This document shows, one piece after another, positions 11,921-15,366 of a stretch of DNA of 64,000 bases. The DNA lies in NCBI GenBank assembly GCA_017526785.1, contig JAFXQV010000027.1, positions 105,876 to 169,875 of the forward strand. The letters are read 5' to 3'. The notes under the pieces were generated by a model, which did not search any database, was not told the DNA's origin, and saw only the letters and a list, made by a program, of their open reading frames with translations. Numbering within the stretch: the first letter of the stretch is position 1; every line of letters starts with the position of its first letter. A program made the position numbers and the translations under genes. Origin of the DNA: Oscillibacter sp. (GTDB lineage Bacteria > Bacillota > Clostridia > Oscillospirales > Oscillospiraceae).

Positions 11921-11949
11921 TTGCAAAAGAATCCCGTGTTTGCTATAAT
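11921..11949 (+). promoter_or_regulatory. Promoter of the cas12f1 locus
   Basis: TTGCAA (11921-11926) and TATAAT (11944-11949) with 17 bp spacing lie nine bases past the MITE target duplication. Transcription would start near 11956, which makes the ATG at 11955 unlikely and supports the start at 11982. Confidence 0.8.
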
Positions 11950-11981
11950 TAGGCATGTTCCGACAGGAAGGGGGAACCCAC

Positions 11982-13283
11982 ATGGGAAAGGGCGTCCTCG
12001 CCAAAGTTATGAAATATGAGCTTCGCTATCTTGACGGTTGCGGCGACTTCTCCAATATGCAGGAACAGGTGTGGGCGTTGCAACGTCAAACCCGCGAGAT
12101 TTTGAACCGCTCCATACAAATCGCGTTTCAATGGGACTGCGCCAACAGCGAACACCACCGGAAAACAGGTGAATATCTGGACTTGAAAACCGAAACCGGG
12201 TATAAGCGTCTTGACGGGCATATTTACAATTGCCTGAAAGGACAGTATGAAGATATGGCCACCAGTAATCTAAACGCGACTATTCAAAAAGCGTGGAAAA
12301 AATACAATTCCTCAAAAAAAGAAATTCTGCGCGGTTCCATGTCGATACCGTCCTACAAGATGAATCAGCCGCTTACATTGGATAAGAATACTGTAAAATT
12401 GTCGGAAGGTGAACGCAATCCCATTGTTACTTTGACGCTCTTTTCCGACAAGTTCAAACGGGCGCAAGGCGTTTCCAACGTCAAATTTTCCATGCCTCTG
12501 CATGACGGGACGCAAAGAGCGATTTTCGCCAATCTGATGAATGGCACGTACCAGCTTGGAGAATGCCAACTGGTTTACAAGCGTCCGAAATGGTTTTTGT
12601 TTGTAACGTACAAATTCCCGCCTGTTGAACACCCGTTAGACCCGGATAAAATTCTGGGCGTTGACATGGGCGAAGCCTGCGCTTTGTACGCCAGCACATT
12701 CGGCGAACACGGCTATTTGAAAATTGACGGCGGAGAAATCACGAAATACGCCAAAAAAATGGAAGCGCGTATCCGCTCCATGCAGAAACAGGCGGCGCAC
12801 TGCGGGGAAGGGCGTATCGGACACGGAACAAAAACGCGGGTGTCTGTTGTCTATCAGGCGAAAGACAAAGTGGCGCGTTTTCGTGACACAATCAACCACC
12901 GCTACAGTAAAGCGTTGATTGACTACGCGCTGAAAAACCAGTGCGGAACCATTCAAATGGAGGATTTGACGGGGATTAAGGAAGATACCGGATTTCCGAA
13001 GTTTCTGCGCCACTGGACTTACTATGACCTTCAGTCCAAAATTGAAGCGAAAGCGGCGGAACACGGGATTCAGGTTGTGAAAATCAATCCGCGCCACACG
13101 TCGCAAAGGTGCAGTCGGTGCGGACACATTGACAAGGCAAACCGAACCAGTCAGGCGGATTTCTGCTGTACGAAATGTGGCTTTTCCGCGAACGCCGATT
13201 TTAACGCCTCTCAGAACATCTCCATTCGGAATATTGACAAAATCATAGCGAAAGCAATAGGTGCGAACCGTAAGCAAACATAA
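11982..13283 (+). CDS. cas12f1: Cas12f1, miniature type V-F CRISPR effector nuclease
   Basis: A 433-residue RNA-guided DNA nuclease of the TnpB-derived Cas12f family. The RuvC residues are Asp228 (ILGVDMGEA), Glu327 (IQMEDLTGI) and Asp406 (NADFNASQN). The zinc finger in the nuclease lobe has Cys377/380 and Cys396/399 (CSRCGH, CTKCGF). The N-terminal segments LQRQTREILNRS, KEILRGSMSIPSYK and FRDTINHRYSKALID, and WTYYDLQSKIEAKA near the end, closely resemble my recollection of Acidibacillus AsCas12f1 (422 residues). The length equals that reported for Oscillibacter OsCas12f1 (433 residues); identity was not tested. Start at 11982: AGGAAGGGGG precedes it and the upstream ATG lies at the transcription start. 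A tracrRNA-like segment and CRISPR array follow. Known homologues act as asymmetric dimers on T-rich-PAM DNA. An IS605 TnpB is excluded by the array and lack of element ends. Confidence 0.93.
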   Translation: MGKGVLAKVMKYELRYLDGCGDFSNMQEQVWALQRQTREILNRSIQIAFQWDCANSEHHRKTGEYLDLKTETGYKRLDGHIYNCLKGQYEDMATSNLNATIQKAWKKYNSSKKEILRGSMSIPSYKMNQPLTLDKNTVKLSEGERNPIVTLTLFSDKFKRAQGVSNVKFSMPLHDGTQRAIFANLMNGTYQLGECQLVYKRPKWFLFVTYKFPPVEHPLDPDKILGVDMGEACALYASTFGEHGYLKIDGGEITKYAKKMEARIRSMQKQAAHCGEGRIGHGTKTRVSVVYQAKDKVARFRDTINHRYSKALIDYALKNQCGTIQMEDLTGIKEDTGFPKFLRHWTYYDLQSKIEAKAAEHGIQVVKINPRHTSQRCSRCGHIDKANRTSQADFCCTKCGFSANADFNASQNISIRNIDKIIAKAIGANRKQT

Positions 13284-13441
13284 AATTCCCGGAAGGTTCG
13301 CACAATTCAGGGGCGACTTCCCGTCCCAAAATCGAGACAGTAGCCGTAAAACTTTGAGTTTCAGAGTGGGCGACACACTCGAAAAGGTTAAGATATGCAC
13401 ATAGTAATCCGTGCATGAGCCGCAAACTTGTGCGGAATTGC
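13284..13441 (+). ncRNA. tracrRNA-like structured segment with anti-repeat, between cas12f1 and its array
   Basis: The 158 bp after the cas12f1 stop contain no gene but several local stems: 13310-13315 with 13322-13327, 13351-13356 with 13362-13367, and 13395-13400 with 13411-13416. A longer-range CGAG/CTCG pair (13333-13336 with 13378-13381) encloses the second, a layout that resembles published Cas12f tracrRNAs. The 3' part is an anti-repeat: TGAGCCGC (13416-13423) pairs with GCGGCTTG of the repeat with two G-U pairs, GCGG (13432-13435) with CCGC, and TTGC (13438-13441) with GCAA. That gives 16 pairs with two internal loops. The first repeat begins at 13443. No strong separate promoter was found; TTGACA at 13234-13239, inside cas12f1, lacks a good -10. 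The 5' end is unknown. Confidence 0.8.
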
Positions 13442-13442
13442 C

Positions 13443-13608
13443 GTTGCAACCCGCGTATGGGCGCGGCTTGAAGGTTATGACTGATTCCGAACTCGCCGGA
13501 CGCCTCCGTTGCAACCCGCGTATGGGCGCGGCTTGAAGGACACCAAGAGGTAGGCATTGTTACACCCCCTGTTTACGTTGCAACCCGCGTATGGGCGCGG
13601 CTTGAAGG
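13443..13608 (+). CRISPR. Type V-F CRISPR array: three identical 32-bp repeats, two full spacers
   Basis: Repeats lie at 13443-13474, 13508-13539 and 13577-13608. They begin GTTGCAACCCGCG and end GGCGCGGCTTGAAGG, with an inner stem CCGCG/CGCGG. A C precedes all three, so the unit may be 33 bp. Spacers are 13475-13507 (33 nt) and 13540-13576 (37 nt). A possible third spacer (13609-13638) is followed by GGCGCAAC, perhaps the relic of a fourth repeat. The repeat shares GTTGCA...ACCCG...TGAAGG elements with the Un1Cas12f1 repeat as I recall it. No cas1, cas2 or cas4 is in the window, so new spacers would need adaptation proteins from elsewhere. Confidence 0.93.
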
Positions 13609-13654
13609 CCCATGATTACGTCCGTGTACTCGCGTACAGGCGCAACAAATAACA

Positions 13655-13683
13655 ACAGCCCCGCCCGGAATGGGCGGGGCTGT
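13655..13683. terminator. Bidirectional terminator between the Cas12f array and ptsI
   Basis: A perfect 12-bp stem (13655-13666 with 13672-13683) and five-base loop stand between two converging units. Leftward, after ptsI, it is followed by a T-rich stretch (TTGTTATTTGTTG). Rightward it would end the CRISPR transcript with a poorer tail. Confidence 0.8.
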
Positions 13684-13710
13684 CGTTATGCGGGATTGCG
13701 TCAGAGGCAA

Positions 13711-15366
13711 TCAGCATTTGAGGGCGTCGAGGGTGCAGGTCTTGGCAATGCTCTTGCGGATTTCGGCGCGGAGCGGCAGTACCGACGACGGCGACACGCT
13801 CAGCTCGTCAATACCGATTGCAAGGAACGTCGGCAGAAGCGACAGGTCAGCGCCCAACTCGCCACAAATGCCAATCCAGATACCCTTCTCGTGGGCGGCG
13901 TCGGCGGCCATTTTCAGGGCGCGGAGAACCGCCGGGTGGTGCGCGTCGAAAAAGCGTCCCAAATCGCTGGCCTGACGGTCACAAGCAAGGGTGTACTGGG
14001 TGAGGTCGTTCGTGCCGACGGAGAAGAAGTCGACTTCCTCGGCGAGTTCCGGCGCGACAAAGATAGAGGACGGCGTCTCAATCATGATACCGATTTCGGT
14101 TTCCTTGTTGTAGGGGACGCCTTCCTTGTCGAGTTCGGCCATAACGTCCGCACAGGCGCGCTTGCACTCCTTGACTTCCCAAACAGAGGTAATCATCGGG
14201 AACATGATGGCGACCTTGCCGTAGGCGGAGGCGCGGTACAGGGCGCGGAGCTGGGTACGGAACACCTCGCGGTTGTTCAGGCAGATACGGATAGCGCGTA
14301 CGCCCATGGCGGGGTTTTCTTCCTTTTTGAGGTGGAAGTATTCGACCTGCTTGTCAGCGCCGATATCGAGCGTACGGATGATGACGCGCTTGCCCTCCAT
14401 GGCGGCGGCGACTTTCTTGTAGGCTTGGAACTGCTTTTCTTCGGAGGGGTAGTCGGTCTCCGCCAGATACAGGAACTCGGAGCGGAACAGGCCGATTCCC
14501 TGTCCGTCGTTGTTCTTGACGGCGGCCACGTCGTCGGGGTTGCCGATGTTGCAGTAGACGTTGATGTGACGCCCGTCGAGGGTCACGTCCTCCTGTCCCT
14601 TCATGGCGTCCATGAGTTCCTTGAACTTCTTCTGCTTCTCCATCTTGTCCTTAAAGGTCTGAATGGTGAGGTTGTCGGGGTCAAGGACTACTTTTCCGGT
14701 CTCGCCGTCGAGGTAGGCCATACGGCCTTGCAGGGTCTCTTTGAGGTCCGCGCCGAGACTGCAGGCGGCGGGAATGCCCATGGTACGCGCCAGAATGGCG
14801 GTGTGGCCGTTGCTGGAACCGGCGGTAAGGGCAAAGCCCAGAATCTTGGACTTGTCAAGCTGGAGGGTTTCGGAGGGGGCGAGGTCGTCGGAACAGAGAA
14901 TGACGGGTTCTTCGGAGTCAATGCCGCCTTCGGCAATGCCCATGAGGTTGTTAAGGATACGCTGTGTAACGTCCTTGACATCGGCGGAACGCGCTCTCAT
15001 GTAGGCGTCGTCCATGGCGGCGAACATGGCGGCGAACTGCTCCCCGGCTTCCTTGACGGCGTACTCGGCGTTGCAGGATTCGTCGTTGAGCATGGTTTCA
15101 ATGGCTTCCACGTAGTCGTCATCGTCGCAGAACATGGCGTGGGTCTCGAAGAGAATCGCGCTTTCCTCTCCGGCCTCTTCCCGGCACTTGTCCGCCAGCT
15201 CGTAGAGCTGGTTGGAGGACTTTTCCCGCGCTTCCACGACGCGCGCCTTTTCGGCGGCAACGTCGGCGACTTTCACCTTGGCAATGTCGTAATTGGGACG
15301 CTGGAAGAAGTAGAGGGGGCCACGGACAACGCCCTTGGAGATACCTTTGCCTTGAATCAGAACCAT
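13711..15366 (-). CDS. ptsI: PTS enzyme I (phosphoenolpyruvate-protein phosphotransferase)
   Basis: Starts the sugar phosphotransferase chain by taking phosphate from phosphoenolpyruvate and passing it to HPr. The 551-residue protein has the N-terminal HPr-binding/swivelling domain with active-site His188 in SNGHTAILAR and the C-terminal PEP-binding barrel (GIGLFRSEFLYL, RTLDIGADKQ, GIMIETPSS, and the Cys loop WIGICGELGAD). The residues before the histidine are SNG rather than the common RTS, but the histidine and downstream TAILAR are intact. GGGAGGA precedes the ATG. It lies downstream of ptsH with a hairpin-rich 127-bp gap. Confidence 0.95.
   Translation of the reverse strand: MVLIQGKGISKGVVRGPLYFFQRPNYDIAKVKVADVAAEKARVVEAREKSSNQLYELADKCREEAGEESAILFETHAMFCDDDDYVEAIETMLNDESCNAEYAVKEAGEQFAAMFAAMDDAYMRARSADVKDVTQRILNNLMGIAEGGIDSEEPVILCSDDLAPSETLQLDKSKILGFALTAGSSNGHTAILARTMGIPAACSLGADLKETLQGRMAYLDGETGKVVLDPDNLTIQTFKDKMEKQKKFKELMDAMKGQEDVTLDGRHINVYCNIGNPDDVAAVKNNDGQGIGLFRSEFLYLAETDYPSEEKQFQAYKKVAAAMEGKRVIIRTLDIGADKQVEYFHLKKEENPAMGVRAIRICLNNREVFRTQLRALYRASAYGKVAIMFPMITSVWEVKECKRACADVMAELDKEGVPYNKETEIGIMIETPSSIFVAPELAEEVDFFSVGTNDLTQYTLACDRQASDLGRFFDAHHPAVLRALKMAADAAHEKGIWIGICGELGADLSLLPTFLAIGIDELSVSPSSVLPLRAEIRKSIAKTCTLDALKC

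Follow-up and report, generated by a model that had tools for sequence, protein, structure and literature searches.

The window analyzed here, a stretch of 64,000 nucleotides (nt) from Oscillibacter sp. (assembly GCA_017526785.1, contig JAFXQV010000027.1, positions 105,876 to 169,875), carries the native type V-F1 CRISPR-Cas (clustered regularly interspaced short palindromic repeats and associated proteins) locus of OsCas12f1, an already published enzyme, and hence does not represent a new locus. Our analyses indicate that its trans-activating CRISPR RNA (tracrRNA) ends against the first repeat of the array, and a continuous transcript in which the tracrRNA tail pairs with repeat 1 in cis is, as a layout, well supported. 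We consider it probable that a single transcript captures repeat 1 in cis and is then cut into tracrRNA and CRISPR RNAs (crRNAs). Identity, layout, conservation, pairing potential and covariation are direct results of this work, and the protein and the activity of its engineered guides have been published; co-transcription, cis capture and cutting are what we infer.

The OsCas12f1 locus and the fold at its tracrRNA-repeat junction

All features of the window locus lie on the forward strand. The cas12f1 gene (11982..13283) encodes 433 amino acids, and its product (11982-13280) is identical over residues 1-433 (433/433) to the chain "Cas12f" of PDB entries 9nzq, 9nzs and 9nzt, which the depositors named OsCas12f, from Oscillibacter sp. 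(PMC13186708); OsCas12f1, also of 433 amino acids, is described in PMC10090079. This full identity bears out the Cas12f1 assignment made by the initial annotation of the sequence. The protein also matches 8j12 (expectation value, E, 7.4e-103), which is AsCas12f according to PMC13186708, as well as Pfam Cas12f1-like TNB (PF07282, E 1.4e-22) and the NCBIfam model guided_TnpB, the two databases agreeing on a nuclease of the TnpB/Cas12f type. Three traits of type V-F1 are present: a small Cas12 with RuvC and a C-terminal zinc ribbon, close to Cas12f1 proteins; an adjoining array of three repeats with spacers of 33 and 37 nt; and a tracrRNA with anti-repeat and pseudoknot, recognized from sequence and folding. 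The guide-bound dimer of OsCas12f is published to cut DNA (PMC13186708).

Repeat copies (GTTGCAAC...) begin at 13443, 13508 and 13577. Repeats 1 (13443..13474) and 2 (13508..13539) have the same sequence, and a C precedes these as well as repeat 3 (13577..13608), so that the repeat may begin at 13442; spacer 1 (13475..13507, 33 nt) and spacer 2 (13540..13576, 37 nt) lie between them. The tracrRNA core (13310..13415), supported by fold, pair counts and a covariance model match of 110 bits (the window sequence being part of the model), consists of stem 1 (13310-13327), stem 2 (13332-13382) and stem 3 (13397-13414). It is followed by the anti-repeat (13416..13441), identified by folds and covariation, which is also the end of the array leader and is made of three pieces. 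The first (TGAGCCGC, 13416-13423) is complementary to 13463-13470 with eight pairs, two of them G-U, of which the energy model retains seven, thus leaving 13470 free for the pseudoknot; the second, GCGG (13432-13435), pairs with CCGC (13451-13454), and the third, TTGC (13438-13441), with GCAA (13446-13449) on the loop CGTT. All three helices occur in the minimum-energy folds of 13416-13474, 13309-13474 and 13255-13474; in the second of these folds they accompany stems 1, 2 and 3 and close on CGTT, and they are unchanged when the hairpin upstream of the tracrRNA is included, as in the third. Sequence and folds agree with the initial annotation on the positions of the anti-repeat pieces and of repeat 1 and on a tracrRNA that abuts this repeat, with an uninterrupted, foldable sequence from the tracrRNA through the repeat to the spacer. 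The tracrRNA start that it had placed at 13284 did not stand: the conserved core spans 13310-13415, and the fold of 13284-13506 is another structure, in which a lone 3' arm (13284-13303) captures part of the anti-repeat because a start at 13284 splits the hairpin at 13261-13303. From the sequence, a start near 13309-13310 is most likely.

One contact was absent from the initial annotation. The loop of stem 1, CTTC (13317..13320), forms the 5' side of a putative pseudoknot, its complement being GAAG at the end of the repeat (13470-13473). The corresponding four-base stretches, searched with some register freedom, are complementary in 22 of the 23 related units whose tracrRNA abuts repeat 1 (the exception is L034), in the covarying forms CTTC/GAAG, CTCG/CGAG, CTTG/CAAG and CTCT/AGAG; in the alignment A3, where MAFFT shifted the pseudoknot by one column, 61.8% is paired as a result.

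Conservation of the junction among related loci

Relatives were collected by a scan of genome_contigs (27 loci) and a second scan of viral_contigs (24 loci), a first viral_contigs scan with a single protein as query having found no relative. Searches of entire genomes in sets of 300, 391 and 394, the window's own being in each set, yielded 2, 1 and 3 further matching genomes (G007 in two); 4 matches came from plasmid and 3 from phage records, and four of these were read. A tracrRNA pattern scan of viral_contigs listed 80 stretches, none of which passed the core filter; all 49 matches listed for the tracrRNA-core model lie on the strand of the gene. Duplicates were removed before counting (L017, L008 or L030, L043, L052, L059, L140; one per pair kept), and repeat starts and the labels tight, mid and far were assigned by hand. 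L009 was left out of the tail tests because its tracrRNA lacks stem 3, and A3 leaves out L009, L034, L142 and L143; the 23 units of the tail, pseudoknot and TTGC tests include L143b and not L009, the 23 counted arrays L009 and not L143b.

Counting the window, 23 related units have a tracrRNA that abuts repeat 1 (tight units); in the Clostridial relatives, it occupies the interval from the cas12f stop codon to repeat 1. Inspection by eye showed a tight arrangement in which the array precedes the gene in the viral contigs L037, L042, L045, L047 and L049, and an automatic duplex search confirms it in all of them but L037. In seven AsCas12f1-type units (far units), the best anti-repeat end lies 53-149 nt upstream of repeat 1. 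Expected pairs between tail and repeat averaged 17.4 in the 23 tight and 8.2 in the 7 far units, and the best duplex ends at most 4 nt from repeat 1 in 15/23 and 0/7, respectively. When tails were permuted among repeats, none of 20000 permutations reached the observed pairing sum, a test which, like those of covariation, leaves shared ancestry in. Combined shuffle P values on energy are 1.6e-8 for tight and 0.028 for far units; those on the number of pairs are weaker (9e-4 against 0.94). Tails showed no clear preference for repeat 1 or repeat 2 in three loci where these differ.

In a 19-row alignment, 81.2% of the cells of the named structure are paired, against 27.8-43.4% for slid versions, and 16 of its 34 pairs changed on both sides, a count that relatedness inflates, as it does the following ones. 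Both-sided changes affect the first anti-repeat helix in each of its seven pairs (72.0% of cells paired) and the second and third pieces in five of their eight (65.8%); the TTGC/GCAA stem has one such change in 76 cells. The covariation of anti-repeat and repeat that the initial annotation had called for is accordingly complete in the first helix and hardly present in the stem that closes the loop. Permutations and covariation reject chance pairing at the level of the family; at the single window locus chance is not rejected, 16% of dinucleotide-shuffled tails folding as well or better.

Arrays have 2-21 repeats in 22 of the 23 counted, the remaining one (L020) running into Ns, and up to 21 repeats stand behind one abutting tracrRNA. 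Most spacers, if they are used, would therefore need pairing in trans, in line with what the initial annotation expected for later spacers. In L009 (4330-4440), half of stem 2 (its 3' side), the whole of stem 3 and the anti-repeat's first piece are missing from the tracrRNA, yet 11 repeats follow: the system may have decayed or be supplied in another way, or the assembly may be at fault. In L156 (1217-1339), the Ruminococcus albus 7 plasmid pRUMAL01, a tracrRNA core (E 2e-8) lies upstream of the gene of a Cas12f1 relative, and a search of about 1.4 kb to each side gave no repeat array.

In a quick tree of 44 Cas12f and 3 TnpB proteins, the window belongs to a 23-row clade (support 82), of which 22 rows are labelled tight and L032 is not. 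A distant, unlinked tracrRNA, which the initial annotation would have held against its own proposal, is not the layout of this clade, and is that of the AsCas12f1-type loci. The latter (L029, L021, L022 and L038, from Sulfoacidibacillus, Anoxybacillus, Croceifilum and a viral contig) have a tracrRNA core as in the window, and the repeat of L029 matches that of AsCas12f1. L021, L029 and L038 share with the window the order gene-tracrRNA-array; unlike in the window, their best anti-repeat stops 134-149 nt short of repeat 1, and a 44-nt inverted repeat, exact in L029 and L038 and decayed in L021, stands between the two. In L022, again unlike the window, the core lies upstream of the gene. This inverted repeat (GTCGTCGA..TCGACGAC) also precedes the array, exactly, in L022 and, decayed, in L036 and L053. 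In G1043, the genome of L029, a second copy is found about 520 bp after a cas1 match on the same contig, as if it were a leader element common to arrays of different systems.

The initial annotation had gone on to propose an intermediate between TnpB and Cas12f, which our data do not sustain. The tight state requires at least six changes over the quick tree, which does not fix the state at its base; the window protein falls inside Cas12f1, with only 22-24% identity to the TnpB-like proteins of its own genome; and the locus has three repeats where TnpB with its omegaRNA has one guide per element without an array.

Readings of the junction

We suppose that cas12f, tracrRNA and array most likely share a single transcript, since no promoter- or terminator-like site was found to separate the gene from the array and since the array leader is the 3' end of the tracrRNA. 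During transcription, the tracrRNA tail would fold onto repeat 1, the first repeat to come out, as a near full-length anti-repeat:repeat hairpin, while the loop of stem 1 would pair with the last bases of the repeat; host nucleases would then most likely cleave the upper hairpin and the array to yield tracrRNA and crRNAs. Spacer 1 would be captured in cis and the other spacers in trans, by the tracrRNA of other transcripts. An uncut tracrRNA-repeat 1-spacer 1 RNA would be expected as a precursor and may itself be active, because the stem holding the junction does not seem to touch the protein: stem 4 of the OsCas12f guide makes no direct protein contact, and deletion of nt 106-125 gave tenfold higher plasmid interference (PMC13186708), both presumably corresponding to the upper anti-repeat:repeat stem. 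In pull-downs, the RNAs bound by AsCas12f1 and SpCas12f1 were a separate tracrRNA of 169 or 153 nt and crRNAs of 40-50 nt (PMC8548392), a comparison that, on the AsCas12f1 side, concerns a non-abutting layout. The rule of separate tracrRNA and crRNA invoked by the initial annotation holds for these published cases, but in this clade tracrRNA and array are not generally encoded as separate genes.

Several observations weigh against this course of events. The lack of an internal promoter comes from a crude consensus scan, which listed no forward-strand site from 12653 to 13800 and found 3 sites where shuffled sequences gave 2.3. The folding advantage of tail-repeat pairing at the window locus is modest, the net gain being small because the repeat alone forms its own hairpin (-12.1 kcal/mol); only 8 of the 23 tight units pass 5% individually on the energy shuffle, the window not among them, and in 8 of 23 the strongest repeat duplex lies elsewhere upstream. 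The best fold of the whole array (13309-13645) drops the repeat 1 hairpin, and RNAalifold without constraints pairs the repeat with itself rather than with the anti-repeat. Cas1 (PF01867) was not found in the genome of the window (0 of 1 genome, 94.6% complete), which leaves no visible route to spacer addition in this genome as assembled and makes of spacer 1 as the newest spacer an assumption.

The same junction might instead make a natural single guide, in which tracrRNA, repeat 1 and spacer 1 would remain joined as a single RNA for Cas12f1 to load and use. The exact abutment, the continuous fold, the conserved tight layout and the recurrence of modules made of a tracrRNA and a mini-array are in its favor, as are the activity of tracrRNA-crRNA fusions with a GAAA loop (PMC10090079) and a junction stem that, on our mapping, is free of protein contact (PMC13186708). 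We nevertheless hold it to be unlikely, given that AsCas12f1 and SpCas12f1 bound two separate RNAs (PMC8548392), that the loop-closing stem barely covaries and has all four TTGC/GCAA pairs in 13 of the 23 tight units, that 22 of 23 arrays hold 2-21 repeats and that the hairpin is probably a nuclease substrate. Another explanation is that spacer integration maintains the final bases of the leader (often TTTTGCN), which the tracrRNA end simply overlaps in compact loci, and that functional pairing is all in trans. TTGC plus one nucleotide does end the leader in 17 of the 23 tight units, including L011, L025 and L026, whose repeat has no GCAA at the facing place; the far units L021 and L038 carry CTTTTGGG or TTTTTGGG before repeat 1 although their anti-repeats end 149 and 136 nt upstream; and, of the 26 genomes that host related loci, 14 have a Cas1. 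Yet it leaves unexplained why anti-repeat pairing reaches the leader end, the pairing in L025 and L026 is shifted and not lost (in the computed fold, the leader GC takes a different GC in the repeat as its partner), the other far units have a weak T-rich end before repeat 1 or none, and Cas1 is missing from the window genome and from 12 of the 26 host genomes, most of them of unknown completeness; this makes it, to our mind, quite improbable. TTGC as a pure pairing element is not upheld, as it persists where the repeat lacks GCAA. This persistence, together with the T-rich end in L021 and L038, suggests that these bases also have a leader role, perhaps in spacer integration, the tip of the hairpin being at least partly a by-product.

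Neighboring elements, known systems and implications

Upstream of cas12f, the consensus scan gives a weak promoter-like site at 11921..11949 (TTGCAA-17-TATAAT, with TG before the second hexamer). A conserved hairpin (13261..13303, GTGCGAA..AAGC..ACAT..TTCGCAC) spans the cas12f stop codon directly 5' of the tracrRNA and is single-copy in the window genome by pattern search. Past repeat 3, a third, very short spacer may be followed by the remnant of a fourth repeat (13631..13643, CGCGTACAGGCGC, 11/13 repeat-like), a resemblance noted by reading. Between array and convergent downstream gene lies a terminator-like inverted repeat (13649..13689, 18-nt arms, 94% complementary), which the terminator scan did not list; Rfam gave three matches, all below gathering scores and all in this terminator area, and none at the 13261-13303 hairpin. 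The first 20 nt of spacer 1, of spacer 2 and of the stretch after repeat 3 each had 0 exact matches in viral_contigs, and a DNA search of the array region against phages found no match.

The hairpin recurs beside cas12f as GTGCGAA..AAGC..ACATAA..TTCGCAC, 43 nt long and of near-constant length, in the window, L055, L051 (two copies), L158, L040, L046 and others. A model built on 15 copies from 14 sources finds it on the gene's strand (E <=0.01) in 24 sources out of 61, a count that takes in the 14 used to build it, and in 0 of 5 TnpB loci. In Clostridial loci the hairpin overlaps or follows the stop codon; in L040, L046 and L158 it precedes the start codon, and in L044 tracrRNA stems flank it. 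It may serve as a boundary mark between mRNA and guide RNA. Some loci hold two modules of tracrRNA and mini-array, in tandem or flanking the gene: L153 (2632-3150), L154 (1-454, minus strand), L051, L036, L157, L159/L045, L046 and L158. Paired model matches were obtained in L153, L154, L051 and L036 and, weakly, in L157 (E 0.04-0.06), the second module of L159 and those of L046 and L158 being recognized by eye only. The tail fits the repeat of its own module better in 10 of 14 comparisons, which is only suggestive.

Cas9 has a natural single guide in the long tracrRNA (tracr-L), a fixed guide that represses the cas promoter. The window RNA resembles it in uniting tracrRNA and guide in one RNA, and differs in that it would carry an array spacer. 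Functional RNA splitting in TranC systems, as in LaTranC, is said to be a step between one-piece and two-piece guides. LaTranC (PDB 9jfo) is no close relative of the window protein, matching it at E 8e-5 and only over its C-terminal residues 294-414. In the leader-repeat hairpins of types II-A and VI (PMC13187072 and PMC12080349, citing Liao 2022), leader RNA pairs with repeat 1, as proposed here, and in type II-A this pairing speeds crRNA maturation of the newest spacer. An effect of such pairing on crRNA output is established for these two types. The II-A and VI hairpins block a useless first crRNA, whereas in the window the spacer served by repeat 1 is a genuine one and the tracrRNA itself forms the leader. 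In the work on OsCas12f1, the same protein, tracrRNAs are predicted from the non-coding DNA that separates the gene from the array, and a GAAA tetraloop links tracrRNA and crRNA, the native junction being undiscussed in the parts consulted (PMC10090079). In titles, abstracts and passages, a scope leaving aside most subscription journals and supplements, we found no description of a Cas12f1 tracrRNA-repeat 1 junction, nor data on native RNA processing of OsCas12f1, a genome-editing nuclease.

For the Clostridial and several viral Cas12f1 loci, it is tempting to go further, although we regard the idea as rather doubtful: leader and tracrRNA 3' end would be one element, the leader-proximal spacer would be served first, covalently or in cis, and loci would grow by duplication of tracrRNA and mini-array instead of sharing one tracrRNA. 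Every pre-crRNA would then bring its own tracrRNA in cis to repeat 1. If cis delivery does not hold, the clade would still offer a natural contrast, abutment against about 130-150 nt in most far units, for the linkage of tracrRNA and array. Should tracrRNA indeed reach repeat 1 in cis, the order of the spacers would determine immunity with no extra factor needed, and the split of one-piece into two-piece guides would become directly testable through this junction.

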